Of a DNA stretch of 46,986 nt, positions 8,726-45,861 are shown in pieces. The DNA lies in the IMG/VR virus record IMGVR_UViG_3300027917_000067, positions 1-46,986 of that record; one strand, written 5' to 3'. The notes under the pieces are model-generated. The model saw only the letters and a program-made list of their open reading frames with translations, was not told the DNA's origin and made no database searches. Made by a program: the position numbers and the translations under genes. The stretch comes from a virus. Numbering within the stretch: the stretch's first letter is position 1; every line of letters begins with the position of its first letter.

Positions 8726-10951
8726 TTATTCTGTATTATCAACGTTTTTATTTGATAATTCTTTTTCTCTATCTGTCATACGTTGTTGCAATAGTTTTTG
8801 TTGTGCAATAGTCTTAGTAATTTGTGAATCTATTTCTCTACTACCTTCGTCTATTCTATTTTGTATTTCAGATTGAACTACTTGTCGTTGTAATGTTTCA
8901 ATAGTACTTTCTCTATCTTTCAATGTTTCAGTTAGACTTTCTAGCTGTGATTGTAATTGGCTATAAAGTGATTTACGTTGTAAAATAGATTTCTTGTTAC
9001 GTATATCAGTATGTTCTAGCATTGCTATATCATCTATAAGACCAGATTGATACCATTTGAAGTATTCATCTAATAATGCCCAACGATTAATTGGTTGTGT
9101 TGCACCAGCTACAATACGAATATCAAATTGAGCGGCGCTATAATCGTTAAAGCGTTCTACAACTTCTCCAAAATCATTGTACATAGGAATATTAATAGAT
9201 ACTTGTTCTATTTCACCTTGTGTTTGACCAGCTTCTGGTTGTACAATTCTAAACACTTTCTGTGATGTATAGGTAAATTGTGCAATATCTTTAAACACGT
9301 GTCCTAAATGTTCTAGGGCTGGTTCTACACAATTGTTTACCCATTGTCTAATTCTTCTTGTTCCATATTCATCCATTGCTAACATACCACGATAAGTTTC
9401 GTGGCTATCTTGACCAACACCTTGCATACTAGATGAAATACCACTAATGTATTCTATATCTGCTTTACCTTGTTGAGTTACAGTATAAAACGCATTATTA
9501 ATTGGTAATGGTTGTACTGGTGTAGGTGGAGTAAATCCTTGTCTAAATTTTAACATCGCACCTGGAGCAGATGAATATTTTTCCCATTCTTCTTCATCTA
9601 CAGCACCTTCGGTGTATAACCATCTTAGATTACTTGCAAGATTTGCATTATGTAGCATAATTTGATGTGCTTTATTGATTTCTCTTTGTTTACCAATCAT
9701 AGGCAATACTGCACTCATAGGAAATGGAGTATTAGTATGCATATATGGTATTGGAACAATTGGATAATCTTTAATTGGCAATATTGTTTCGTATAAATAC
9801 ATATCACCAGCACTTGCACACATTTTTACTTGTGTTTTGTAAAACTCTACCGCTTCTACTAATTTATTTCTAAACATTGGACTTTTATTCAAATCATCAA
9901 ACTCGTCTTTTGTCATTACTTCTTGTATAGTTTGTGTCTGAGCTTGAACCATTTGTGCTTCCATTAATGCCATTTGTTCATTAATCTGAGCAGCCATTTG
10001 TTCTTGTGTTTTTTGTAATTCAAGTTCCATACGTTCTTCAAGCATTTCACCTTGTGCTACAAGTCCAGCTAATTCTGTTTCACGTTCTTTTAAACGCACA
10101 TCATTTTCTTGAGCCATCATTTCAACATTTGATTTAGCTTGTTGTTTAATAGCTTCTAATTCTTCAGGGGTCGGTGTTTTCTTTAAAAATACATTAACAA
10201 AAGGTACACGTTCTTTTGTGTACACTTCATAGTAATCTAGAATTTCATCTTGTTCGCCTTCTAATGTATATGCTTCTTGCTCTACATCGCCTGGTTGTAT
10301 ATTTGTAGATTCGTGTATATCACGCATTGAATAATTTTTTGTTTCAGCATTTCCTGAAGCTCTAACAATTTTACGTTTAAAATCAGGAAACATTTTTAGA
10401 AGTTGTGTTTTAGGTAAATTCTTTTGAACGATGATATAACTTGCATCTCTATAAAGAAAGTCTCTACTCATAGGGTCTACATAGACATCATAAGGGTCAA
10501 TAGTTTTGAATACTACTTCACCCATACCTTTATCAGCATCAGGGTCAATATCTACTCTAAAAAATCCTACACCTTTTACTAAAGCATCTTGTATAACATT
10601 ACCAAACAAACTTTTACCACCAGATAAATGCCAACAATATTCAGCAACCATAGAGTGTACGTGTGCAATATCAGTATCACTACCATCTGTACCTATTGCT
10701 TGCCACTTTGGATTGTTTGCTGTAACAAAGTATTTCATAATTTCAATCGCTGGTGTAATACGATTGATAATAAAGTCTGGCATACCACCTTCTCTTAAAT
10801 CTTCTTGTTCCTCAGCAGTAAGTTGTTCGTTTAAATAAAAATCCATACATTTTTGAGAATCCATAAACCATTTTTTACGATAATAACTATTTGATTTTTG
10901 AAACAATTCTCTATTTTGCAATGCTTTGTTTTTTCTACCTTTTTTAGCCAT
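8726..10951 (-). CDS. Portal protein (P22-like family)
   Basis: 741 aa, the usual size of P22-type portals. The N-terminal part contains F-I-I-N-R-I-T-P-A-I-E (about residues 59-69), A-I-G-T-D-G-S-D-T-D-I-A-H-V-H, and D-A-L-V-K-G-V-G-F-F-R-V-D-I-D-P followed by D-P-Y-D-V-Y-V-D-P. This D-P-x-x-V-x-x-D-P signature is shared by portal proteins. Residues about 260-340 form a long E/Q/M-rich coiled coil inserted in the clip or wing region, which is longer than I expect. The C-terminal 100 residues are a further coiled coil, probably the barrel. The portal is the dodecameric DNA gate and packaging motor dock. It follows terminase and lysis genes and precedes scaffold and capsid. Confidence 0.9.
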   Translation of the reverse strand: MAKKGRKNKALQNRELFQKSNSYYRKKWFMDSQKCMDFYLNEQLTAEEQEDLREGGMPDFIINRITPAIEIMKYFVTANNPKWQAIGTDGSDTDIAHVHSMVAEYCWHLSGGKSLFGNVIQDALVKGVGFFRVDIDPDADKGMGEVVFKTIDPYDVYVDPMSRDFLYRDASYIIVQKNLPKTQLLKMFPDFKRKIVRASGNAETKNYSMRDIHESTNIQPGDVEQEAYTLEGEQDEILDYYEVYTKERVPFVNVFLKKTPTPEELEAIKQQAKSNVEMMAQENDVRLKERETELAGLVAQGEMLEERMELELQKTQEQMAAQINEQMALMEAQMVQAQTQTIQEVMTKDEFDDLNKSPMFRNKLVEAVEFYKTQVKMCASAGDMYLYETILPIKDYPIVPIPYMHTNTPFPMSAVLPMIGKQREINKAHQIMLHNANLASNLRWLYTEGAVDEEEWEKYSSAPGAMLKFRQGFTPPTPVQPLPINNAFYTVTQQGKADIEYISGISSSMQGVGQDSHETYRGMLAMDEYGTRRIRQWVNNCVEPALEHLGHVFKDIAQFTYTSQKVFRIVQPEAGQTQGEIEQVSINIPMYNDFGEVVERFNDYSAAQFDIRIVAGATQPINRWALLDEYFKWYQSGLIDDIAMLEHTDIRNKKSILQRKSLYSQLQSQLESLTETLKDRESTIETLQRQVVQSEIQNRIDEGSREIDSQITKTIAQQKLLQQRMTDREKELSNKNVDNTE

Positions 10952-19802: not shown

Positions 19803-19820
19803 TTTACTTGGTGCGTAAAC
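19803..19820 (+). repeat. 18-nt inverted repeat, copy 1 (flanks recombination/replication module)
   Basis: TTTACTTGGTGCGTAAAC here is identical to the reverse complement of bases 31132-31149. It lies 13 nt after the end of the HTH gene and before the promoter of the nuclease gene. The sequence is itself a partial hairpin (TTTAC/GTAAA around TTGGTGC). Confidence 0.7.
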
Positions 19821-31131: not shown

Positions 31132-31150
31132 GTTTACGCACCAAGTAAAC
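31132..31150 (-). repeat. 18-nt inverted repeat, copy 2, at the convergent junction
   Basis: GTTTAC (31132-31137) and GTAAAC (31145-31150) form a 6-bp hairpin around a 7-nt loop. Bases 31132-31149 are the exact reverse complement of 19803-19820. It lies between the last rightward stop (31131) and the last leftward stop (31199), where a bidirectional terminator would be useful; there is no strong T-run. Confidence 0.7.
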
Positions 31151-31198: not shown

Positions 31199-33904
31199 TT
31201 ATAGCTTATCTAATGCTTCCATTACAGCTTTATTATAATCATATCGCTGTACTTTTTTAGGTTTTTCTTTATCTAAACCATATAATTTTTGAACAGCTGG
31301 TTGTACAATTTGTTTTTTACGAGTTTCACTTCTAGGATATAATCCTAATTCACCTTGTAATAATGTAAAGCTATTAATTCCTTTAGACCATTTAGGTATA
31401 GTGTTAGTAAACAGACGATGTGTTTGTGTGTTTAATACTTTAACAGCTTCAGACATTTTTTCATTACCAGATAACTCAGACATATCTTGGTATCCAGCCA
31501 TAAATGCTAATGCAGAATCTTCATCCATATTATAAAATCCCATAATGTTTCCTATCGATACGGCGTCTGATACAAACGGACCACCAAATGTACCTATAAT
31601 AGGACCTTTACCAAAAAATGCTCTTTTACGAGTTTCTTCATCACCAGCTACTACATCGTGATATGATTTTATTCTTTCCCAAGTATCATTTTGTACAAGG
31701 TTCCCTAAATCCATATTTAATAATGGAGCCATAACACCATTGATTGCTAAATAAGTTAATCCTAAACGATACATTCTCCAAGCAGGTTCACTATTCCATT
31801 GTTTAGTAAATACAGCGTCAGTACCATCTCTTACAATTTTTCTTTGTAGATTAAAAAAGTTAAATCCATAATGTTGGAACTGTGTTAATATTGCTCCTAT
31901 TGGACCACGCATAATTTTTGCTTTTGCAAGAGGCGAATAATCAAAATGTAAATTTCTAGTAGCGGCATTACCTTCAGCTTCAGCTACTTTTCTTTTATAT
32001 TGTTCAAATCTAAATTCATATTCAGTAGCATCGCCTTCTTTAAATATTTTTCTGTTTCTATCTTTACTATTACGTAATTCTTCTACAGTCTCTTTTCTAC
32101 CTTCTCTTTTTAAATCTCTTTGTAATACACGTTCAAATCTATTTTGATACATTTGTAAATTAGATTCAATAGCTTTCCAAGATAATGCATAACCTATTTT
32201 AAATGTCCATCTACGATTAATATTATTTTCAACCCAAGTCATAGGTTTACCTAAAAGCTCAGCAGTCTTTTGTATTTGGTCTCCTATTCTATCACCCATA
32301 GACACATCTATAACTTCTTCATATGTTTTTGTTCTTTCGTTATATTCTGTACGAGTGAACTTCATACTACCATAAATATCTGTAATCTCAGGAAACAATA
32401 CACCATTATTTTTTAGCCCTTCATTAATACGAGCCATCATATCTGTATCTTTATAAATTTCTCTAGCTTGTTTAATTCCATTTCCGCCAAACCAAATATA
32501 GTTAAATAAACTTTGTGTACTATTACGAACCGCACCTCTAATATTTAATCCTAACTTACTTGCAAACTCTAAACTGGTAATCATTCTTGATAGTTGTGTT
32601 CCCATAGTAGGATTTTCAAATCGTGTTCCTACAATATCAGAATAACTATCAGATACATAATTCTTTAAAAAGTTTAATTTTGCTTCTACTTGTTTGTTAT
32701 CACCTCTTAATTGTGTTTCCATTATATCTTTCATTACATCCATATACTTTCTAGTATTAAATGCATTGTAATTAAATCGTATTGCATTATTAGCATATGA
32801 TTGCATAATAGGAAATACATTATAATTAATACGCTCGTGCATTGGCGTAGAGTCTGTTAAGTTTCTATTAATATAAATGTTTTCGTTTAATACTTTTTCT
32901 AAATTATCTATAATATCTGTAGCTTCTTTTACTTGTTTAGGTTTACTTGCAAGAGCTAACTTTTGTGCCGCTTTAGACAATGAAGGAAATATATCTAAAC
33001 TTAATACAGGAAAATATCCATTACGTTGCAAATCAGCATCTTTAAATCTATCTCTTACACTTTCTAGTTTTTGTATAGTTTCATTAAAACCAGGTAAATC
33101 TTTCATTATAGGATTGTTATTTTTTAATCCATATAACATATTATTAATACCTTGTATCATTAATCTTGTTGATTCTGGTTGTAATTGATTACGCCATACT
33201 TCTGCAGCCGCTTTGACATTATTAGAATATTGACCTGTTTTTAATAACTCGTCATATGTTTTTCTATTGTCATTTGCTGTTCTTTCTTTAGGCGCAGATG
33301 CTAGTTCGTGAAATTGTTGTAACACTTTTCCTTCACCTTGTTTCATAAACTCAGCTATTTCGCCGTGATACAATCTATCAGCTTCACCATCTTTTCCTTC
33401 TCTTCTTAATTTATTATATTCCCCATACAATTTTTTTAATTCTTTTTGTGCTTTAGTAAATTTTACTTTATCACTTACTTTAGCACCTTCAATTAATGCA
33501 TCCCCTTTTAACAAACGCAAGATTCTATTTAGTCCTTCGTTTGACATAGAAGTTTGACCTTTCATAAACTCATTGGACTTTTGTACATCTTTAAACCAAT
33601 CAGCAACAAATGGTATATCTTTATACAGCTCTTGTGGCAAATACATATACTCAGCAAACTTACCTCTTGTAGTGCCAACATTTTTTACAGTTCTATCTGT
33701 TAATCGTTTTAATAACTTTAATTCTTCTGTGTATGGTACTCGTGATTCACCATTAGTTACTTGATGTACTAAACGATTAAACATATCAGCAGAATGTGAA
33801 CCAAATTGTTCAATTACTGGTTTGCTTTGAAAATCTTGTGCAATCTTTCTATACGCCATTGCATCTTTTTCTCTTTGTTCTGAGGGATATTTACATTCAG
33901 CCAT
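31199..33904 (-). CDS. Large internal virion / ejection protein (901 aa)
   Basis: Mostly helical. Residues about 430-700 have features of the C-terminal parts of giant phage proteins: L-E-F-A-S-K-L-G-L-N-I-R-G-A-V-R-N-S, then H-F-D-Y-S-P-L-A-K-A-K, then P-I-G-A-I-L-T-Q-F-Q-H-Y-G. Two hydrophobic segments follow (L-G-L-T-Y-L-A-I-N-G-V-M-A-P-L-L; P-I-I-G-T-F-G-G-P-F-V-S), which could insert in the host membrane. The start overlaps the stop of the 2944-aa gene (TAATG), so the two are made together and probably act together. It is likely ejected with the DNA; this is inferred. Confidence 0.6.
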   Translation of the reverse strand: MAECKYPSEQREKDAMAYRKIAQDFQSKPVIEQFGSHSADMFNRLVHQVTNGESRVPYTEELKLLKRLTDRTVKNVGTTRGKFAEYMYLPQELYKDIPFVADWFKDVQKSNEFMKGQTSMSNEGLNRILRLLKGDALIEGAKVSDKVKFTKAQKELKKLYGEYNKLRREGKDGEADRLYHGEIAEFMKQGEGKVLQQFHELASAPKERTANDNRKTYDELLKTGQYSNNVKAAAEVWRNQLQPESTRLMIQGINNMLYGLKNNNPIMKDLPGFNETIQKLESVRDRFKDADLQRNGYFPVLSLDIFPSLSKAAQKLALASKPKQVKEATDIIDNLEKVLNENIYINRNLTDSTPMHERINYNVFPIMQSYANNAIRFNYNAFNTRKYMDVMKDIMETQLRGDNKQVEAKLNFLKNYVSDSYSDIVGTRFENPTMGTQLSRMITSLEFASKLGLNIRGAVRNSTQSLFNYIWFGGNGIKQAREIYKDTDMMARINEGLKNNGVLFPEITDIYGSMKFTRTEYNERTKTYEEVIDVSMGDRIGDQIQKTAELLGKPMTWVENNINRRWTFKIGYALSWKAIESNLQMYQNRFERVLQRDLKREGRKETVEELRNSKDRNRKIFKEGDATEYEFRFEQYKRKVAEAEGNAATRNLHFDYSPLAKAKIMRGPIGAILTQFQHYGFNFFNLQRKIVRDGTDAVFTKQWNSEPAWRMYRLGLTYLAINGVMAPLLNMDLGNLVQNDTWERIKSYHDVVAGDEETRKRAFFGKGPIIGTFGGPFVSDAVSIGNIMGFYNMDEDSALAFMAGYQDMSELSGNEKMSEAVKVLNTQTHRLFTNTIPKWSKGINSFTLLQGELGLYPRSETRKKQIVQPAVQKLYGLDKEKPKKVQRYDYNKAVMEALDKL

Positions 33905-36900
33905 TAACAGTTCCTCTTTAGTTCATCAATATGTCTATTAGCAACATCTTCTGGTTTTGCTTGTTCGTTTCCGTATTTCTTTCTACCAAGATTATCGACT
34001 CCATTATAACTACCTCCAGACATAGTATCACTAGTGTTAAATATACTACCTTTATCTTTTTGATACAAGAACAATGCATCGTCCATTTCTTGAGCTCTAC
34101 GCAATCCTTCTATACCATTAAGTTGCATATGTCTACCATACATACTCATACGTGTAATTACGTGTGTTGGTAGTTGTAGTTCTTTACCATTGGTGATAAT
34201 ATCTCTAATCATACCTACACCAAACATACTTTGTAATCTACTATATTCATCTAACTTACTAAACTCCATTTGTTCTCTCATTTTACTAGCTGTGCCAGGA
34301 TAGAATGCATCTACAAGTTCCGCTTTACTATGTCCTGTTGCAATTTCAAATGGTTCTACAAAGAATGAATGTTCTACATCTTTACCTGTAGCTTCATTTA
34401 ATGCTTTAATATCTGTTTCTCTATTATGTAGTCTATTGTATACATATTCATAACTACGACCAATTCCTTTGACGAATGCATCTACTTGCATCGTGTCAAA
34501 TTTTACCATAGAAGCACTATTTGTTTGTGAGTCTATCATATATCCTAATCCTAGGTTAATAAACTTTTCTACATTTGTTGTAGTTGGTTTAAAGAAAAAA
34601 CTACCATTATAATTTACAAGTCTTGAAGTATCCATTTCAGGTGTCATTAATCGCAACATAAACCAAGTTTGTTGTTGAGAATCTAATCCTTGTAAAAAAC
34701 TATCTATCTGATTATAAAACCAATCTTTAATTTCATTTTCAGTACGCCATCTTACTTTATCTTTAGCAAAAAATTCTTGCCAAGCCGCATTATAATCTTG
34801 TTTGATTTCTCTAATTTTAGATTCAATATATTTATATTGTCCTTCATTCTTAGCAAATCCTATTTCTGCACCTACTTTATATCCATAGAATCCAAATCCT
34901 TCCATAAGAGCTAATGTATTAATCATATCAGAATCTCTTACAGTATCTATCTGCATACCTTTGTCTTGTAGGTCTTTATCTACACGTTTTACAACGGCAT
35001 CAAATTCTTCTTTTGTTAATGCATCTTTTTTAAGATTTGTTTTTTCTTCAAATACTTCTGATTTAATTCTAGCATTTCGAATAGCATCATAATCTTTATT
35101 TGTAATTGGAAATCCTTTTTTATCCATACCAGGTTTATAGATTACTAAGTTATTTAATATACCATCTTTTGCTTTTATTAATTTGTTAATTTGTCTATCA
35201 TAATAATTATAAGAATCATAATTACCTTGACCTTTAATACTAGCTTGTTTAGAACGTATTCTTTTTAGTTTGTCTATTCTATTTTGTATTTCATTTGCTA
35301 CCTGTATACTTCTTGCATCATTTTTAAAATTACTGTTGAATTGTGCAATAGCTTCACCCATATCATTAATTGGCATATTAGTTAATTCAGCTATTTCATC
35401 AGCAAAAGGTATTGTTTCTGATTTGTCTTTTCTACCTACAGGTCTAAACTGAATATTTTTCATATGCATAATTTCAGCTAATACTCTATCGTGATGCATA
35501 AAGTTCTCAGATGTTTTAGATGTATTTGTTAAACGAGCATCTTGTGCAAATCCACCAAAGTAGTCTATATCCTGACTATTCCATTTTTTTCCATTTAAGT
35601 TGTTTGCATAATACTGTGCACGATTCATAGCATAATTAAATTCTTCTGCTTGAGATACTAAGTCTCTCCATCCTACACTTTTAGATTCACCATCTTTATA
35701 AATCTTATTAGATAGTTTTAGTATTTGTTCGTATGGACGTATTAATGCTTTTGTAATAATTTCTTTATCTTTAGAATCAATCTTTGCATTTTCTAATCTT
35801 GTAAGTTCAGATGTTTCTATTTGTTTTCCTTGTACTTTTTGTCTTGTAGTAATTAATTTTGCTTGTACAAAAAATCCGTCTTTTGCATTAAAGAATATAT
35901 CGTCCATAATACTTTGCTTGTCGCTAAACTTATTACGATTATATCCATTTTCATAGTCAAGTATTGCTTGGTTATAATCTGCAATCTTTTGATATACTTT
36001 CTTTAAAGAAGCTCCTTGTCTAATAGTAATATATCTTTTATTTGCTCCTTCACCAAACTCAAATACTACACGTGCTGATTTACCAGTTTCACTATCAATA
36101 AATTTTTGTTTTCTTGTAGTTTGGTTACTTAAGAAATATTGTACAATTCTATTAGCATTCATTAAAGAACCACGTAGATACATAGCATTTTGTTCGTATG
36201 CCATATATTTTTGTATACTTTCAGCTGTGTTTTGTAATCCTTCATAGTTCATCAAACCACCTTCTTTAGGAAGCGGTTGTGAATCTTGTATCATTTCACG
36301 ACCTTTAACATATTCACTTAATGTGTTTTTATTTGAGTTCCACCAATAGTTTACGGTATCAATATCAAAGTCTCCTTCAGCCGCTCTTTTAACATCTACA
36401 CTATTTAAATTAAACTGATTAGACATATCTTTACTTAAGAATCCTTTTAACCCTACTACCATTACACTACTTGGTTTTGTATGTGGATTACGTTCTACAG
36501 CTAATGCTACTTGATATTCACCTTTACCTTTACCTAGTTTATATACCGCTTGTTGTAAGTCATTTAATGAAGAGTTTTGATTAATACCTTCTTTTTCTAG
36601 CGCTTGTTTAATTTTACTATTTTCTGAGGCAAATACATCTATCACTTTATCATAATCACCTTTAACTCTTTGAATTAAATTTACATTTTCATTTTTCCAA
36701 TCAATAGGTTTTAAACCATCAAGATATGGTATTTCAGCTTCACCAAAATTATAAATCTTTTCACCGACAATTAATGTATTCTTTAATCGTTCACCGCTAT
36801 ATATATCTTTTACGCCAAAGTCTGTTGGAGATAATACTGCATTACCACCTACAGTTTTAATTTTAAACATATCATCTACTAGATTGTTTTTAATCATATT

Positions 36901-39900
36901 TTCCCATTGTCTAGTCATAATAGTTGGTAGTACATTATTACGAGCAAATGCCGCCATAATACCTTCACTAGATAACATCTCTTGTCCTAAGCTTAATCGT
37001 GTTTCTGCACGTTGATTCATTAAACTTTTAAAATATGCTTTTGTCCAATTAGATTTACTTGGGTCTTTAAAGTCGCTAATTGCTTGTTTAATTTTAGTTA
37101 CTTTTGGTTCTACATATTGCAAGTAATATGCTTTTCTAGATTCTTTAGTATTTAAATGTGAAGTATGGTTAATAGATAATGTTGCATATTCTTTACTTTT
37201 CTTTGTACTAATAATATTAATGTTTTCTGGTAAAATAGTTTGTTTAAACGCATTGTCAATAACAAAACCTGGTTTCAATACATCTTCAGCACGAAGTAAG
37301 TTAATTTCTCTAGATGCACCTATTTGTTTACTAGCACTAGTAAAAGTTAACCAAGCTACATCTTGATTTGCATCAAATATAGATTTTATTCTAGGATTAT
37401 TTACCATAGCTGTTTTGTTTACAAATAATTGTTGATTAGCACCTGTACCTAATATGATAGGTTTAATACCACCTACTCTTGTAAAATCAGTTTCCCCAGC
37501 TAAATATGCTAGTGCTTTATATACTTTTTCGCTTACAAACGTAATACCATTTACATCTGATGCATCAGAAAATTTTTTACTATCTATTAATTCGTTAAAT
37601 TCTTTTTCAGCTTTATCGCCTAATGTTTTATTTTCAGCTTTTAATTCAGCAATATCTTGTCTAATTTGCTCTATTACTGAGTTCTTTACATCAATACCAT
37701 CAATTACTTCATCAGCTACGGTAACTTGTTTCCAGCGTTTCTTTGTATTAGCTAAATCAGATAATACTTCTATAACATCTTCTTTACCCTCAAAAGTAAT
37801 TTCATACTTTCCTCTAGGTCCTTTACGCTTTAAGGCATTCAAATGCATTTTAATTAACGCATCTGTTTGACTTACTGCACTTATGTTGTTAAACAATGAT
37901 GCACGTTTTAGTAATCCATTTAAATTTTTTCCTTCAAACGTACGCATATTTTCATTCCAGTAACGTTGACCAATAATTCTATCATAGATTAAATCATTCA
38001 TTACTTTGTGCATATTTTCTGTAGCTAATGTTGTATCATTACCTATGTTCCATTCATAAACACCTTCTGATATTTCTTTAATGTTTACTTCTTCTAATAA
38101 TTTATTTCTATCTATATTAACATCTTTATTTGCTTTTAATCTTGCATCTAACATTTTTACATAGTTGTTAGCAATTGCATCTAAGTTTATTTTATCTGAT
38201 TTGATAAGATAAGCATACTCTTGTTTTCCCCAACGAAATGCAATAAATGATTGATTTGCGTTTACATCTGGATTAAAAGAGTTTACGGATTCCCATTCAA
38301 TTTGTTCTTTTGTTTTAAAAATATCGCTAATAGCAAATGCTTTATCTATTGAAGCATAAGTTCCTTGGAATAAGTTTTCTAATGCATTATTACGCAATCC
38401 AGCATCAGATAATGTTTGTCTATTACCTTTATCATTAATTCCCTTACCTTGTAAAATATTTACTTCTTTACCAAATTCTGATTGAGCGCCACGAAGTATT
38501 TGTACTACAATAGGTTCTTGTATTAAATCTTCTGAGGTTAATACATTTTTATTTTCTTGACCATTCCAATCATAACGTACTACTTTAATTTGTTTATTTT
38601 TTGTTTGTATAAATTGACTTAAAGCAATAGTAGCTTCTTGTATGTCTATTTCTTTAGGAGCATTATCCCTATCTACAATCTTTGCTTTTCCTAAATCTTT
38701 TTGGAAATCTTTTATAAATAAATCGTAGTCTTTATTATATACATCTTCTAAAATTCGTTGCATATATTGTACGTGGTCTGCAGTAGTTCTACCAGCTTCA
38801 GGTGGCAATTTAAATCTACTACCTTCAGCAAAATCATACTTATTTAGAATATCAGTTAGCTTAACATCTTTTGGTTCAGGAAAATCTTTTTCAAAGAATT
38901 TATCATTTCTTAACACTTCATCAATTGCTTTGTTTTCATCTTTAAAATTACGATTTAATCTATTGACTAACTTTTCACTATACTCTTTAATAGTTTCAGC
39001 ACTCCAATCTTCGTCTGCAAACTTCTTATCTCCTTTAGGATTGTATAACTTTAATTCTTGTGCTAATGTATATACTTCTGTAGCACTCTTGTAATTGAAT
39101 CGTGAACCTTGTCCCATTAAATTTAGTATTAACAATCTAAAACGCTTATTAGTCATATTTTCTGTACGAGCAATAGACTCAGTAATATCATTTATAAATC
39201 GTTGTGTTTCGTTTGTTAAACCTTCTGTTCTAATAGTTTCAATATGATTCTTCAATTCTAAAAGTTTTGCGGGTGTAATACCAGTTTCGTACTTATTACC
39301 ACCACTTCTATTTAATACACCAGCACCACTAATAACATCTTTACCATCAATTTTTCTTACAGGTTCACCTTTGCTATTTACTGGATTAATTTCATATGGT
39401 CTAATAATTCCTTGTAACGCCGCTAATACATCATCAAAAAACCCTGGAGCTTCATTTGCTTTTAAGGTTCCTCTTTCTACTAATTTTTGCATAGACAATA
39501 ATGCATCTAATATCCCTACATTATTTTCGGTAACTCCTTGTTGTTTTAATGATTCAATAGTTGCTTCAATACCATCCGTATTTGCTTTATCTAACCAACC
39601 TTCTGTTTTGACATCAAACAATACTCTAGACACAGAACGTAATGTAAAGTTTTTCGTAATACCAAAATCTTCTAATGCTTGTAATACGCCAATGTCTTCT
39701 ACATCTATACGCTCACCATTATTCTTTGTGCTATTACGTAAACGCTCTATATTGTATCGTTGTGCTACTTGTTTGCCCATTTCTGTAATACTTAAGGAAC
39801 TATTATTTCTTTTTAATACACCACTAAATGCGTGTATACCAACATTTTCAAGAGTGTTTATAACAAATCTAGCTTGTTCTTGTGTAATGGTTTTAGTACT

Positions 39901-42738
39901 AGCACTTCCTAATGCTGGGTCTAAATTAGAATGCATTTGACGAATAGTTTTTAAGATAGCGTTCATTTGATGTTCTAATTGTCTATCTCTATTTCTACCT
40001 CTTGATACTACAAAATTACCTACAACATTTAATGCTGTATCTGCATCCATAAATACATCAGCAAATTCTGCATTTGTATCAAATATATTTTTCAATCCAT
40101 TAGGACCAGCAGCAGTTCTAATTGCATTATGTAAGTCTAAAAATCTAAATGCATCTGTTAATGTTTCAGTAGAGTAGTCTACTTGTTGTCTAATTTCATT
40201 TAATTTTAAACGACCATTAAGTTCACCTAATCCTTGTTTATAGGTTGCTAATAGTTCTTGCATTTTACCGCTATCAAATTTATCACCAGTTAATTCCCAA
40301 GGAGTGCTGGATTTTGTATGTACACCTTCTGAAGTAATTAGGTTTACTAATTCATTGTATCCATCAATAGCCGCTTCTGTTCTAGCATCTAATTGTTTAC
40401 GTTGTTCTCCTGATAATTTGATACGAATTTGTCTAAATTCTATACGTGAGCTATTAGGTATCTTAGTATACAATCCTACATCTCCAAATACATCAGCTAA
40501 ATTAGTAGCATTAACATCTAATAAATCTCTTAACTCATTAATAAATACAGCATTTGCATCATTAAATCTATCATAGACATCTAAACGAGTCATTAATCCT
40601 TCTTTATCAGCACTTTTAACAAATCTATTTTTTTCAGCTTTTGTTAATTCACTCCAAACTTTAAATCGTCTTTCTTTTTTAGATTTTAATATTTCTGTTT
40701 CGTGAGCCGCACGTTTGATGTTTGTAGATTCTTGGTGTATAATCTCATTATAAATACTTTCATACTGAGAATCATTTTTAATTTGATTATTTTCTTTTGG
40801 TTTTACATCTAAACTTTTTACAGTAGTAAATCCTACATTACCTTTTCCACCTGCAATTACCATATCGTGAATACTATTTAAGGTTTCTAAATTTTCTGGT
40901 GTTTGATTACGTACAATAGAAGGTATTTCAGTTTCAATTAACGCTTTAACATAAATATTAGACCATTCAGGACTATTCTTCATAGAAGTACCAAATGCAT
41001 TCATTAATTGTTCTTGTGCTAATAATTTTTTAGGAAATTCTCCGTGAGCTTTAAACCCTAATACTTGCATTCCTTCATAACTACCATTAATATTTTTATA
41101 TTGTAGTTCTTTTCCGTGTTTCATTAAAAATGCACCAGTCATAAAACTAATTAATTTATCTTCAAATGGTATATTTGGATTTAAGAATACTTCATTCATA
41201 CCACCCATTGTATAACCACCTAATACCATTCTAGGAGTAGATTGTAATATATCTTTTCCAAACTCAGCTACAAACTTCTTTCTCCATTGACCTTGTACTT
41301 GTCTATTTAAATCTCTTAATGCATCACGCATAATAATTGTTGCATCTTCTTTTTGTTGTAATGCTTTTTTACCACGTGATTTGTTCATTATAATATCTCT
41401 AAATGTTTGCGTAGAAGCCGCTTCATCATCTATTCTATTCCATAATGGATGTTTCTTTACAAAATTCTTTAAGTCTAATGCAATAGGACCACCTGTATAT
41501 GCATCATCTTTAATGTTTGCTAATAAATTATATTGGTCATAAATCGCTTGTTGTCCTTTTTTAGTAGTAACATCAATTGTAGAAGAATGGTTTTTACTAG
41601 CTTTTAATATACGTTCTATACGTTGCGCACCATTACCACGCATTAATGGTAACATACCACCTCTAACACCGCCAGGAACAAATCTTACTGCACCTAATAA
41701 ATGTCCCATCATAAGTGCGTGTTTTGTTGTTCCGCCAAAATCAGCTTCTACTTCATCGCCTGTAACAAACTTACCACCTAATACATCAATTCCGTGCATT
41801 AAATTTTCTACACCAGCAAACAATAACGCTTCTTCACCTAAATGACCATATAGGTTTGCGACTTTACCGCCTTGTTGCATCATATTAAATGGAATAAATC
41901 TATGTAAATTTTGTGCAATAAGTGATTGCATACTAGTAATAGGAACACCATCAACCGCTTTCCAAGCATCTTTTACAATAGAATTAATTGCTTTTTCTGC
42001 TACACCTTTATCAATTCTAAATCCTTTTTGCATAGCCAAATCATCTATCATTTTATAAGCGTTATCCATAATTTGTTTTGAAAACTCATTACGCTTTGTT
42101 ACTGTTTGAAACGCTCCATCAAATCCTTTAATAGGATTAATTAATGCAGGGTCTAATACGTGTTTTTTAAATGATTCAATGATGTCATCAGTTTTACTAA
42201 TACCATCTGCTAATTCTCCTTTTTTACCAAATTTTATAGCACCTTTCTTTGATAAAACATTTTCAATATCTTTAGTAATACTTTTTGCAACGTTAGTAGC
42301 ACTTTTTTGTCCAGCAAATGCTCTACCTACACCACGCATAACCTGTGCACCATATTTAAATGGTACTAAAAATCCAGCTGCACTACCTACCGCTTGTCCT
42401 AATTTACCACCTAAACTATCAGATGCACCTTCTGCTGGGTCCCAATCACTCACGGCACTTGGTATTCCTCCTAATGCTAAATCTACAAATGATTCTCCAG
42501 CTTCTCTACCAAAGTCCCATAATCCAGAACCAAGGTTTTCAAACATATTCTTTTCATCTACTTCAATACGTCTAGCACCAATCATACCACCAGATTGTTG
42601 TACAGGTGTTTGACCTATAGGAGAACTAGGTATCTGTGTAGGTGTTTGTGTAGAAATTCCTTTTAAATTATCTTCAAATTGTTTTTCTACTTTTTGTTCT
42701 AAGTTTAAGCCTTTTCTTAACTCACTTAAATCTGGCAT
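33904..42738 (-). CDS. Giant virion protein with DFDID motif, putative virion RNA polymerase (2944 aa)
   Basis: The largest gene, one uninterrupted frame. Seen: D-F-D-I-D at residues 2123-2127 in R-A-A-E-G-D-F-D-I-D-T-V-N-Y-W-W, preceded by V-E-R2083-N-P-H-T-K-P. The spacing (R-x-P, about 40 residues, then D-x-D-x-D) parallels the catalytic barrel of cellular RNA polymerase beta-prime (N-R-A-P ... N-A-D-F-D-G-D). About 320 residues earlier, W-L-T-F-T-S-A-S-K1804-Q-I-G-A could be the lysine-bearing barrel. Known: crAss-like phage phi14:2 gp66, a virion RNA polymerase, has the same DFDID loop. The N-terminus (about 90-130) is hydrophobic and glycine-rich; the rest is helical and charged. Inferred: a packaged polymerase that enters the cell and transcribes early genes. 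Alternative: a giant multifunctional ejection protein without polymerase activity. Virion membership is inferred from its neighbours. Confidence 0.6.
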   Translation of the reverse strand: MPDLSELRKGLNLEQKVEKQFEDNLKGISTQTPTQIPSSPIGQTPVQQSGGMIGARRIEVDEKNMFENLGSGLWDFGREAGESFVDLALGGIPSAVSDWDPAEGASDSLGGKLGQAVGSAAGFLVPFKYGAQVMRGVGRAFAGQKSATNVAKSITKDIENVLSKKGAIKFGKKGELADGISKTDDIIESFKKHVLDPALINPIKGFDGAFQTVTKRNEFSKQIMDNAYKMIDDLAMQKGFRIDKGVAEKAINSIVKDAWKAVDGVPITSMQSLIAQNLHRFIPFNMMQQGGKVANLYGHLGEEALLFAGVENLMHGIDVLGGKFVTGDEVEADFGGTTKHALMMGHLLGAVRFVPGGVRGGMLPLMRGNGAQRIERILKASKNHSSTIDVTTKKGQQAIYDQYNLLANIKDDAYTGGPIALDLKNFVKKHPLWNRIDDEAASTQTFRDIIMNKSRGKKALQQKEDATIIMRDALRDLNRQVQGQWRKKFVAEFGKDILQSTPRMVLGGYTMGGMNEVFLNPNIPFEDKLISFMTGAFLMKHGKELQYKNINGSYEGMQVLGFKAHGEFPKKLLAQEQLMNAFGTSMKNSPEWSNIYVKALIETEIPSIVRNQTPENLETLNSIHDMVIAGGKGNVGFTTVKSLDVKPKENNQIKNDSQYESIYNEIIHQESTNIKRAAHETEILKSKKERRFKVWSELTKAEKNRFVKSADKEGLMTRLDVYDRFNDANAVFINELRDLLDVNATNLADVFGDVGLYTKIPNSSRIEFRQIRIKLSGEQRKQLDARTEAAIDGYNELVNLITSEGVHTKSSTPWELTGDKFDSGKMQELLATYKQGLGELNGRLKLNEIRQQVDYSTETLTDAFRFLDLHNAIRTAAGPNGLKNIFDTNAEFADVFMDADTALNVVGNFVVSRGRNRDRQLEHQMNAILKTIRQMHSNLDPALGSASTKTITQEQARFVINTLENVGIHAFSGVLKRNNSSLSITEMGKQVAQRYNIERLRNSTKNNGERIDVEDIGVLQALEDFGITKNFTLRSVSRVLFDVKTEGWLDKANTDGIEATIESLKQQGVTENNVGILDALLSMQKLVERGTLKANEAPGFFDDVLAALQGIIRPYEINPVNSKGEPVRKIDGKDVISGAGVLNRSGGNKYETGITPAKLLELKNHIETIRTEGLTNETQRFINDITESIARTENMTNKRFRLLILNLMGQGSRFNYKSATEVYTLAQELKLYNPKGDKKFADEDWSAETIKEYSEKLVNRLNRNFKDENKAIDEVLRNDKFFEKDFPEPKDVKLTDILNKYDFAEGSRFKLPPEAGRTTADHVQYMQRILEDVYNKDYDLFIKDFQKDLGKAKIVDRDNAPKEIDIQEATIALSQFIQTKNKQIKVVRYDWNGQENKNVLTSEDLIQEPIVVQILRGAQSEFGKEVNILQGKGINDKGNRQTLSDAGLRNNALENLFQGTYASIDKAFAISDIFKTKEQIEWESVNSFNPDVNANQSFIAFRWGKQEYAYLIKSDKINLDAIANNYVKMLDARLKANKDVNIDRNKLLEEVNIKEISEGVYEWNIGNDTTLATENMHKVMNDLIYDRIIGQRYWNENMRTFEGKNLNGLLKRASLFNNISAVSQTDALIKMHLNALKRKGPRGKYEITFEGKEDVIEVLSDLANTKKRWKQVTVADEVIDGIDVKNSVIEQIRQDIAELKAENKTLGDKAEKEFNELIDSKKFSDASDVNGITFVSEKVYKALAYLAGETDFTRVGGIKPIILGTGANQQLFVNKTAMVNNPRIKSIFDANQDVAWLTFTSASKQIGASREINLLRAEDVLKPGFVIDNAFKQTILPENINIISTKKSKEYATLSINHTSHLNTKESRKAYYLQYVEPKVTKIKQAISDFKDPSKSNWTKAYFKSLMNQRAETRLSLGQEMLSSEGIMAAFARNNVLPTIMTRQWENMIKNNLVDDMFKIKTVGGNAVLSPTDFGVKDIYSGERLKNTLIVGEKIYNFGEAEIPYLDGLKPIDWKNENVNLIQRVKGDYDKVIDVFASENSKIKQALEKEGINQNSSLNDLQQAVYKLGKGKGEYQVALAVERNPHTKPSSVMVVGLKGFLSKDMSNQFNLNSVDVKRAAEGDFDIDTVNYWWNSNKNTLSEYVKGREMIQDSQPLPKEGGLMNYEGLQNTAESIQKYMAYEQNAMYLRGSLMNANRIVQYFLSNQTTRKQKFIDSETGKSARVVFEFGEGANKRYITIRQGASLKKVYQKIADYNQAILDYENGYNRNKFSDKQSIMDDIFFNAKDGFFVQAKLITTRQKVQGKQIETSELTRLENAKIDSKDKEIITKALIRPYEQILKLSNKIYKDGESKSVGWRDLVSQAEEFNYAMNRAQYYANNLNGKKWNSQDIDYFGGFAQDARLTNTSKTSENFMHHDRVLAEIMHMKNIQFRPVGRKDKSETIPFADEIAELTNMPINDMGEAIAQFNSNFKNDARSIQVANEIQNRIDKLKRIRSKQASIKGQGNYDSYNYYDRQINKLIKAKDGILNNLVIYKPGMDKKGFPITNKDYDAIRNARIKSEVFEEKTNLKKDALTKEEFDAVVKRVDKDLQDKGMQIDTVRDSDMINTLALMEGFGFYGYKVGAEIGFAKNEGQYKYIESKIREIKQDYNAAWQEFFAKDKVRWRTENEIKDWFYNQIDSFLQGLDSQQQTWFMLRLMTPEMDTSRLVNYNGSFFFKPTTTNVEKFINLGLGYMIDSQTNSASMVKFDTMQVDAFVKGIGRSYEYVYNRLHNRETDIKALNEATGKDVEHSFFVEPFEIATGHSKAELVDAFYPGTASKMREQMEFSKLDEYSRLQSMFGVGMIRDIITNGKELQLPTHVITRMSMYGRHMQLNGIEGLRRAQEMDDALFLYQKDKGSIFNTSDTMSGGSYNGVDNLGRKKYGNEQAKPEDVANRHIDELKRNC

Positions 42739-42741
42739 TTA

Positions 42742-43977
42742 CTACCATCCTCTCCATAATTTATTGTATGCTGGTTTTATTTCTTGTTTCTTATTTTCTA
42801 GCACATCTAATGTTGTTTCTAATAATAATTTTTCAAGATTGTGCTGTTCTTGCATTTCAGGTCCATAAATATTTCCATTGCTCATATCACTTGTTAATCC
42901 AATACTTTCATTATAATCAATGTATTTATTATGTTGACTTACTTCTTGTTGAATTTCTTTATTTAAATCTTTTAAAGCATTTTGACTTTTACGTATTTCA
43001 TAGTTAATAATATCCATTTGCCCTTTTAATGCATTAAATTTTGTTTTATCATCTGCGTCATAAGGTACAGTCATTTCATCTATTTTTACAGCCCATTCAT
43101 TTAAATAAGGTATTCCTTTTACAATTTGTTGTTTACGTGCTAACATATTAGCTTCGCTATTATCTAAATTAATAAATTGCATCATAGATTCAGAATCTAA
43201 GGTGTTTAATACGCCTTCTAACGTTATTTCTTCGCTTTTATCTGGTTGTAGTATATTTGACTCGTCTGCACCTAGTAATGACTCATCTAATATCATATCT
43301 TTAAGTCCACTTATTTGGTCTTGTAAAATATTAAAATCAAAATCACCTAGTTCTACTTGTTGTAATTCTGCAGTCAATCTATTATATCCATCTCTAAATT
43401 GTTTTCCATCATTATAATTAGTCAATGCAGTTCCAGTTGCTTGTTCCCATTGTCCATATAAAATATCTAATTCACCAGTAGCACTTCCACCACCTTTAAT
43501 TAATTTGTCTATCACACGCATTTGTGTAATCAAATTGTCTGCTGCTGCAACATCCATTGTAATTGGTTTGCCTGTTGCTGTGTCAGTAAATACAAAGTCT
43601 CCATTACCAGTTAAACTTTCTATCATTGCTTTTTTATTTTTATCAGATATAGCACCATCTTCATCTAAAAAGCTACTATACCAACCATCAAAAGTAGTAT
43701 TCCATACAGTTTTTGCTTCTGAACCCCAATTCGTTAATGCTACTTGTGCTAATCCTTTTGCTCTATTAATAAATCGTTCTTCTTTTTTAGCTAACAATTC
43801 TTCTTGTTGTAATCCTAATTGTTCTCTTTTAAAAGCAAGTTCTTTGTCAAATCGTTCTTCTTGTTGCGCCATTTGTAATGCTCTTAATGATGCTTCTGTT
43901 TTAGCGTCTTCTCTTCTAGCACGACTTTCCATCATATAGTTTAATGTTCTAAATATATTTGCGTATTCTACAGCCAT
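42742..43977 (-). CDS. Internal virion-like coiled-coil protein (411 aa)
   Basis: The N-terminal 75 residues form a Q/E/R-rich coiled coil (A-S-L-R-A-L-Q-M-A-Q-Q-E-E-R-F-D; E-L-L-A-K-K-E-E-R). The centre is mixed. The C-terminus has further helices (I-R-K-S-Q-N-A-L-K-D-L-N-K-E-I-Q). It ends 3 nt before the start of the giant gene. The layout and position fit a core or ejection protein; no enzymatic motif is seen. Confidence 0.55.
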   Translation of the reverse strand: MAVEYANIFRTLNYMMESRARREDAKTEASLRALQMAQQEERFDKELAFKREQLGLQQEELLAKKEERFINRAKGLAQVALTNWGSEAKTVWNTTFDGWYSSFLDEDGAISDKNKKAMIESLTGNGDFVFTDTATGKPITMDVAAADNLITQMRVIDKLIKGGGSATGELDILYGQWEQATGTALTNYNDGKQFRDGYNRLTAELQQVELGDFDFNILQDQISGLKDMILDESLLGADESNILQPDKSEEITLEGVLNTLDSESMMQFINLDNSEANMLARKQQIVKGIPYLNEWAVKIDEMTVPYDADDKTKFNALKGQMDIINYEIRKSQNALKDLNKEIQQEVSQHNKYIDYNESIGLTSDMSNGNIYGPEMQEQHNLEKLLLETTLDVLENKKQEIKPAYNKLWRGW

Positions 43978-43987
43978 TGTTTATCCT

Positions 43988-44497
43988 TTAAAATAATACT
44001 TCCCAAAAACTATCTCTTTTTGATAAATTTTGATTTTGTCTTTTTAATAATTTTTTCTGATTTTCAATAGAAGCTAATGTACTAATTTCATATTCATCTG
44101 CTGCTGCAAATCCAGCATCTCTTGTTCGTTCTAGTTGTACATATTGAGATTGAAATGCTCGGTCCATTTTATCAGTTAAAAAATCCATTTCTGATTCTAT
44201 TGCACCTACATTAGCAAATTTATTTAAATCCAATGTTTGTTCCATTGTTCTACCAATGCCTTCCCATTGTGTACCAGATTCTATTCCAGCTTGTTCAAAA
44301 CTAAATCTAAATTCGTCTTCAGCAACTTCACGCTGTGCTTGTGCAGTATCTTTTGTAAATCCTAATGCATCATTTAAAAATTCTATTTGTATATTGTTAG
44401 AAGCTATTTGCGCTCTATTTGCACTTGCTTCAGCACCAGCTCCGCTTAATATACTATATGCTGATAATCCTAATTGTGCTATTGAATATGGGTCCAT
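43988..44497 (-). CDS. Internal virion-like protein (169 aa)
   Basis: Starts M-D-P-Y-S-I-A-Q-L-G-L-S-A-Y-S-I-L-S-G-A-G-A-E, a short hydrophobic alanine/glycine-rich segment, followed by long amphipathic helices (A-Q-A-Q-R-E-V-A-E-D-E-F-R-F). The plan recalls small internal core proteins such as T7 gp14 (similar length, hydrophobic N-terminus), but sequence similarity cannot be claimed. Overlaps its upstream gene by 1 nt (TAATG). Confidence 0.55.
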   Translation of the reverse strand: MDPYSIAQLGLSAYSILSGAGAEASANRAQIASNNIQIEFLNDALGFTKDTAQAQREVAEDEFRFSFEQAGIESGTQWEGIGRTMEQTLDLNKFANVGAIESEMDFLTDKMDRAFQSQYVQLERTRDAGFAAADEYEISTLASIENQKKLLKRQNQNLSKRDSFWEVLF

Positions 44498-45861
44498 TAT
44501 TCTACCTCGTCTTCCATAGTATATATTTGACTTGCATTTGCATCTACATTAAATAATTGTAAATTTTCATCTACAATACCAGCTTTCTTTAATAATTCTT
44601 GTTCTTCGCTATATTCTTCTATAAATGGATTAATATTATCTCTATTTTTATAACGTTTCCACATAGAATTATCACCGTAAAAATCTCCTAAATCTAATCC
44701 TTTTTCTTTACCAGTATATGTTGGAGTACCTTGTGGTAGTTGTTGTCTTTCTGTTTCACTTAAACTACCCATTAACATTGTATCTATTTCAGCCCAAGGT
44801 GCATATACTTTATCTGTACCAGCCATCATTTGAAATGTTCCATCACCAGCAAACAACCATCTTGTATTAATTTGGTATGGACCTAAATCAAACCCTAACC
44901 CAGCTTCATTCTCTCTAATAATCATTTCTCTATCAGCCGATTCTGCTGTACGAATATAAGGAGCAACATCTTCCCAAGCCATATTATCGCTAATCTTATT
45001 ATAATAAGGTTTCATAAATTGTTGTATTTCTTTTATACGAGCTGTTTGTTCTTTTGTTCTTGCGCCTTTTTTAATACTTACTAAGTCTTTATATTCTGCA
45101 TAAGTTTCAGTAAATTCAGTCTTTTCTGTATCAGTAAGTCCTACCATAGATGTTAAATCTGCATCATAGTTTGCACTATCTGGACTAAATTTATCTTGTA
45201 TTAATTTGTCTACGACTTCAGACTTAGAAGACCATTTATCTAAACCATAACTCTTTGTTGACCTATCTGCTTGATAAATAATTTGTCCAGCTTTGTATGC
45301 ATCTTCTTCACGTAATACTTTAGCCGCTTTTACTCCATAATATCCTGTACCTAATATAGGTTGTGTTTCTCCTGATTTATATGTCCATCCACTACCTTTA
45401 GGCAATACAGGTTGTTCGTCTATTTCTCCATTAATAAATTGTTGCATTTTATTTGTTTGATAAGTTTGAGCTAAAGCTCTCATGTCAGCGGCATCGTATT
45501 TTGTTTTACCTATTTGCCAAGATTCCATACCTACTTCACTCAATTTATTTTTACCTTCAAAAACATCCATAAGTGTTACTTTATCATATACAACTGTTCC
45601 ATTAGCTTTTTCTTCAGCAATTGCAACACCTTTTTCTACTTCACGCATACGCTCTTTTTCTTGGCGTCTTGCGTCCATAAAGTTAACTACTTCACCTAAA
45701 GCAGTAATATTACGTTGCTTTTGATTTTCGTTGGCATAGATATTTTCTACAGCCATTTTACCCATTTGTTCTTGCATCATAGCATCATACATAGACGCTT
45801 TTTGCATACCTGAATATGTTGCTTTTCTTCTAACTGCTGATTTGATAGGAGCTTTAGCCAT
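44497..45861 (-). CDS. Virion protein with lysozyme / transglycosylase-like segment (454 aa)
   Basis: Residues about 300-335 read Y-I-R-T-A-E307-S-A-D-R-E ... G-F-D-L-G-P-Y-Q-I-N-T-R-W. The E-S-x pair followed by G-x-x-Q-I-N is the pattern of lytic transglycosylase and goose-lysozyme-like domains, in which the first Glu is catalytic. The rest is helical with E/Q/K-rich stretches. Such domains in internal virion proteins open a hole in peptidoglycan during DNA entry. The domain is judged by eye and is less certain than the endolysin call. Confidence 0.55.
   Translation of the reverse strand: MAKAPIKSAVRRKATYSGMQKASMYDAMMQEQMGKMAVENIYANENQKQRNITALGEVVNFMDARRQEKERMREVEKGVAIAEEKANGTVVYDKVTLMDVFEGKNKLSEVGMESWQIGKTKYDAADMRALAQTYQTNKMQQFINGEIDEQPVLPKGSGWTYKSGETQPILGTGYYGVKAAKVLREEDAYKAGQIIYQADRSTKSYGLDKWSSKSEVVDKLIQDKFSPDSANYDADLTSMVGLTDTEKTEFTETYAEYKDLVSIKKGARTKEQTARIKEIQQFMKPYYNKISDNMAWEDVAPYIRTAESADREMIIRENEAGLGFDLGPYQINTRWLFAGDGTFQMMAGTDKVYAPWAEIDTMLMGSLSETERQQLPQGTPTYTGKEKGLDLGDFYGDNSMWKRYKNRDNINPFIEEYSEEQELLKKAGIVDENLQLFNVDANASQIYTMEDEVE

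Follow-up and report, generated by a model that had tools for sequence, protein, structure and literature searches.

The window analysed here is a 46,986-nucleotide stretch of viral DNA (IMG/VR record IMGVR_UViG_3300027917_000067, positions 1 to 46,986). It encodes a giant protein which is very likely a virion-ejected, single-chain, two-barrel DNA-dependent RNA polymerase situated inside a larger ejection protein; RNA synthesis and packaging are both inferred. Alignments and a structural model predict that residues ~1560-2345 make up a cellular/crAss-type polymerase core, in which the first barrel bears lysines and the second contains the R-x-P and DxDxD motifs. Computational support for this reading is strong; it consists of sequence inference and model prediction, and there is no experiment behind it.

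Sequence motifs and their conservation

DFDID (residues 2123-2127) is the sole DxDxD in the 2944-aa giant. R-N-P (2083-2085) is found 40 residues ahead of it, and K1804, in the segment TFTSASKQIG, is 319 residues N-terminal to it. An earlier note on this DNA had described a 2944-aa protein with DFDID at these residues, R-N-P about 40 residues before it and a lysine segment about 320 residues upstream; this description held in full. The note gave no strand for the gene, which lies on the minus strand. Features are listed in Table 1; the boundaries of both putative barrels are inferred, those of the first from strands of the AlphaFold model.

Table 1. Features of the giant gene and of its neighbours in the window
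Feature	Position	Strand	Basis
Giant protein gene with embedded putative two-barrel RNA polymerase domain	33904..42738	minus	ORF, 2944 aa; homologues found
Polymerase core as modelled, residues 1560-2345	35704..38061	minus	AlphaFold; Foldseek best match 6VR4
Putative first barrel (DPBB-B, beta-like), ~residues 1725-1860; invariant K1759, K1775, K1804	37159..37566	minus	alignments
TFTSASKQIG segment, invariant K1804	37318..37347	minus	sequence, 21-sequence alignment
Putative second barrel (DPBB-A, beta-prime-like), ~residues 1955-2135; K-x-K..GG, R-x-P, DxDxD	36334..36876	minus	alignments, model
R2083-N-P2085, invariant R-x-P	36484..36492	minus	sequence, 21-sequence alignment
DFDID, residues 2123-2127, predicted metal-binding catalytic loop	36358..36372	minus	sequence, conservation
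901-aa protein, directly downstream of giant; probable ejection-cassette member (inference)	31199..33904	minus	position
411-aa protein, next gene upstream; diverges together with giant; probable ejection or virion protein (inference)	42742..43977	minus	divergence, position
169-aa protein, resembles a T7 gp14-type internal virion protein in size and position (inference)	43988..44497	minus	
454-aa protein, same cassette, no function assigned	44497..45861	minus	

Single-sequence searches with the giant return nothing useful from Pfam, PHROGs, the PDB or 50,697 phage records, and only near-identical copies from IMG/VR. Relatives were first reached with a degenerate DNA pattern for G-D-F-D-I-D-T, which finds giants 25-28% identical over up to ~2600 residues. 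This pattern favours sequences with the motif; to avoid that bias, related contigs were also fetched by their terminase and then scanned with a whole-core profile, not with the motif alone. This route adds 12 contigs with divergent giants; three contigs whose giants are weakly or not detected by the core profile were read directly. At least 599 IMG/VR stretches match the terminase search, and many contigs contain a terminase 75-89% identical to that of the window phage. Nothing useful was obtained by tblastn with two remote family members or by two scans of bacterial/archaeal genomes.

The core was aligned across 21 sequences (residue numbers are the alignment index plus 1559). Most of them share 17-38% identity with the window protein; L045 stands apart at 78%. 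K1759, K1775, K1804, P1938, R2083, P2085, D2123, D2125, D2127 and D2261 are invariant in this alignment. The letters between the three loop aspartates differ among homologues (DFDID, DYDID, DFDGD, DMDGD, DHDYD, DFDLD, DFDFD), as they do in remote giants (DHDGD, DNDGD); the changes go towards forms known in RNA polymerases, e.g. DFDGD. Loss of DFDID in homologues had been named beforehand as grounds for refutation. Every homologue examined retains the three aspartates, although the exact letters DFDID vary, and the polymerase claim passes this check.

DxDxD is present in all 18 full or near-full giants, and 17 of these have R-x-P 33-48 residues ahead of it. The combined signature occurs at 71-77% of chain length in 17 of 18 giants (72% for the loop of the window protein), and composition alone, as judged by shuffled proteins, predicts 0.43 giants with the signature against the 17 observed. 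Giants reached first via their terminase, not via the motif, also carry it. The core is mostly the best-conserved part within the giant. Judged from sequence alone, this is the conservation pattern of a catalytic triad under selection.

Three very remote giants, L281 (G036), L283 (G038) and L284 (G039), contain DFDGD, DHDGD and DNDGD, respectively. G039 keeps its aspartates but has P-I-P in place of R-x-P. By profile score G039 is a clear family member, G038 is borderline and G036 is not a member; G036 and G038 are linked to the family more by motif and position than by profile score.

Predicted fold and relationship to crAss-like polymerases

AlphaFold predicts residues 1560-2345 at pLDDT 79.1 and pTM 0.79 from a 20-sequence alignment; by its mean pLDDT of 79 the core model is good, not excellent. 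Most 10-residue blocks between ~2000 and 2110, around the catalytic barrel, are at pLDDT 87-96. A poor earlier model (pLDDT 54), based on a shallower alignment of 12 sequences, is superseded.

The best PDB match of the core model in Foldseek is 6VR4, the packaged crAss-like RNA polymerase (E 3.5e-10); cellular RNA polymerases come next, and every one of the 14 PDB matches at E<=0.001 is an RNA polymerase. A further match, to plant RDR2 (7w88), has a probability of 1.00. PolD is absent from the 50 best PDB matches. In the BFVD viral library, the model matches many crAss-like phage proteins and two closer ones. Superposed on 6VR4, the model fits only loosely (TM-score by query length 0.42, rmsd 10.9); for this reason nothing beyond the core fold is claimed. 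The cellular enzymes give low TM-scores (0.1-0.14), and their matches count only as a consistent list.

Single-chain two-barrel RNA polymerases are expected to have two double-psi beta-barrels in one chain, an invariant DxDxD loop, R-x-P some 35-45 residues ahead of it in the same barrel and conserved lysines in the first barrel. The giant has the last three. The barrels, whose absence would have refuted the claim of the earlier note, are present by prediction only, with 6VR4 as the best solved match.

The phi14:2 polymerase is KC821624 gp77, which matches 6VR4 across its whole length. In hhalign, the match of the giant family to nine crAss-like polymerases covers 553 columns and spans both barrels, with Prob 92.2 and P 5.9e-7; the score is 68.9, against 21.6 for the best of 197 shuffled controls and 19.1 for a reversed profile. 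A first comparison with four crAss sequences was weak (P 0.006), and deeper alignments gave the strong match. Aligned residues (giant/phi14:2) include K1759-K1012, K1804-K1065, K1959/K1961-K1230/K1232, R2083-R1322 and P2085-P1324; GG1964-1965 and all three aspartates of the giant also align with the same residue types. K1775 is not paired with a lysine in phi14:2. On the strength of this controlled profile-profile comparison, an inference from alignments, it is very likely that the giant family and the crAss-like polymerases are homologous.

Less sensitive comparisons do not recover this relationship. Direct HMM search of the PDB with giant-family profiles gives chance matches only, and 6VR4 is not among them. 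When compared with the giant family as a single sequence, phi14:2 is not above shuffled controls; single-sequence comparisons are therefore without power here. Profile similarity of the single sequences of P23-45 gp64 and gp96 to the giant family is likewise not beyond shuffled controls, in comparisons that are underpowered.

The capsid protein has no match among 50,697 phage records by tblastn, and the portal protein has no crassviral match in the same records (remote similarity is not excluded). At BLAST level, the window phage and its relatives are not Crassvirales. The capsid and portal searches support the proposed extension of packaged two-barrel polymerases to a lineage with a different gene set; the packaging itself is inferred. 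Two other sequences can be mentioned here. L013 is a fragment which resembles a crAss-type polymerase and contains GGDFDID. Flavobacterium phage Fpv1 (L059), whose record places it outside Crassvirales, has a giant structural protein with R-T-P...DYDID.

Genome context and proposed function

The minus-strand arm of the window encodes the terminase, portal, major head protein and other structural genes. The capsid had been called SU10-like; only a match of the capsid candidate to PHROG 1328 'major head protein' (E 1.5e-6) is seen, and likeness to SU10 is not established. The giant gene comes after the 454-, 169- and 411-aa genes and before the 901-aa gene. An ORF of 900-970 aa follows the giant in other family members too. 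A virion location for the giant is no more than suggested, by its gene position among structural genes and by the phi14:2 precedent described below.

Within a contig, the ejection cassette (31199-45861 in the window) is far more divergent than the genes for head and terminase. With one close relative left aside, related contigs have terminases 75-89%, capsids 52-74% and DnaB 52-77% identical to those of the window; cassette genes from the 454-aa to the 901-aa gene are only ~22-46% identical or undetectable. Next to a conserved head module, the giant gene lies within a rapidly diverging cassette whose products are probable ejection proteins.

Some contigs have mixed content. In G007 (71.6 kb) terminase and capsid genes are each present twice and differ in relatedness, G031 (111 kb) contains two terminase genes, and G002 (69.5 kb) combines a closer-group giant with a terminase and capsid that are remote. 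Joining of phages, recombination or chimeric assembly may explain these contigs.

The plus-strand arm (16.8-31.1 kb) encodes DnaB, a Sak-type annealing protein, a PD-(D/E)XK nuclease and a DNA methyltransferase; a gene at 26425-27288 matches the spore photoproduct lyase family (radical SAM DNA repair, E 1.6e-20). No other RNA polymerase is recognised in the window by Pfam/PHROG scans of most larger ORFs; within this scope, the earlier statement that none is encoded held. No primase or DNA polymerase is recognised in the window.

An 18-nt element with its own inverted arms, TTTACTTGGTGCGTAAAC, is found at 19803-19820 and 31132-31149 in opposite orientations. Both copies are just outside annotated-length ORFs and are kept in near relatives; the element could be an operator, promoter or terminator. 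Around the point where the two arms diverge, sigma-70-like promoters are no commoner than in shuffles, and such counts are therefore uninformative. A 25-nt near-identical direct repeat at 8846-8870 (portal gene) and 35269-35293 (giant gene) may be due to chance.

In the proposed mechanism, the giant would be packaged in the capsid and would enter the cell with or before the DNA, both by analogy with phi14:2. It would then, again by analogy, transcribe the early genes of the plus-strand arm, including those for the DnaB helicase and the single-strand annealing protein, without host RNA polymerase; the host enzyme would subsequently transcribe the late genes. The N-terminal part (~1500 residues) and the C-terminal part (~600 residues) may serve packaging and passage through the envelope. 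Coupling of transcription to DNA entry has been proposed for P23-45 (PMC10770324), and by analogy transcription alongside DNA entry is possible in the window phage. The proposal that the giant is a new virion RNA polymerase is supported by motif, fold and profile; in the absence of activity or virion data, both activity and virion presence are inferences, and this limits the packaged-polymerase reading.

Alternative readings, significance and known systems

The best-surviving alternative is that the giant is a two-barrel polymerase that does something else: it could copy RNA templates as QDE-1/RDR2 do, act as a primase, or be a PolD-type DNA polymerase which primes or replicates phage DNA. Double-psi beta-barrel polymerases include QDE-1/RDR2 and archaeal PolD (PMC10770324), RDR2 is among the PDB matches, and the phage has a DnaB helicase yet no recognised primase or DNA polymerase. 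This alternative is unlikely: fold and profile both point first to a virion RNA polymerase that is DNA-dependent, PolD is not among the 50 best PDB matches, and the gene is located among structural genes rather than in the replication arm.

A second alternative is an ejection protein with a polymerase-derived fold that has lost its activity and now has a structural role. The great divergence of the whole ejection cassette and the lack of activity data are in its favour. It is very unlikely, since the aspartates, R-x-P and lysines are invariant or nearly so at ~20% overall identity, as expected if catalysis is selected. Finally, a chance motif in an ordinary tape-measure or ejection protein, for which it can be said that a lone DxDxD may arise by chance at this protein size and that single-sequence searches are empty, is all but excluded and was rejected given the conservation in the 21-sequence alignment, the signature in 17 of 18 giants, the fold match and the controlled profile match.

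An active, virion-ejected RNA polymerase remains the preferred reading. Packaged two-barrel polymerases are already known in crAss-like phages and a Thermus phage; what is new is an undescribed, diverse polymerase family in an uncultured phage lineage with several hundred IMG/VR relatives. No description of this family is found in the open-licence literature searched, which did not cover the supplementary data of PMC10770324. The giant polymerases are likely to be a large, fast-changing and very diverse family in environmental phages.

A bolder reading, towards which the evidence tips only slightly, is that a widespread uncultured environmental lineage outside Crassvirales has its own family of ejected two-barrel RNA polymerases. 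Here the polymerase and neighbouring ejection proteins (~20-35% identity) would diverge far faster than the head/terminase genes (~50-89%), or be exchanged independently of them, as if a module for injection and first transcription were re-adapted to each host. If the giant does work as an ejected polymerase, more phages than now recognised start transcription without the host polymerase. The very divergent loops (DFDID to DMDGD, DHDYD, DFDLD) are natural variants for studying active-site tolerance, and the family adds material on the origin of single-chain two-barrel polymerases. A published comparison covers 23 families of two-barrel polymerases (PMC10770324).

Among known systems, the N4 (Schitoviridae) virion RNA polymerase, of ~3500 residues, is also giant and ejected and has an analogous job (PMC12633501). 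The N4 enzyme is of the T7 single-subunit type; in contrast, the window protein has a predicted two-barrel fold, and a Pfam scan does not find a T7-type RNA polymerase domain in it. A genome search with PF00940 is not counted as evidence, as its controls also missed. QDE-1 and plant RDR2 share with the window protein two barrels in one chain, and RDR2 matches the core model; unlike the window protein, they are cellular RNA-templated enzymes, and the match is weaker.

P23-45 gp96 is a two-barrel polymerase, and it too is embedded in a giant virion protein (PMC10770324). It has R-N-P shortly before DFDGD, like the R-N-P before DFDID in the window protein, and gp64 and gp96 share the pattern R-x-P...DxDGD. 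The gp96 polymerase is at the N-terminal end of the tail tape protein of a long-tailed phage, whereas the window loop is at 72% of the chain.

The phi14:2 polymerase (6VR4) is the best fold and profile match. It transcribes early genes and is rifampicin-resistant (PMC10136315), and mass spectrometry underlies the annotation of the phi14:2 homologue as a structural protein. It differs from the window protein in that sequence similarity is only remote (~14% in the aligned core), the window phage is of a different lineage and the window loop is placed as given above. Both enzymes are single chains with two barrels, predicted in the window protein, and both have the same DFDID loop, as the earlier note had stated. 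R-x-P precedes the loop by 39 residues in phi14:2 and by 40 in the window protein, and in both phages several giant structural genes lie in a row.
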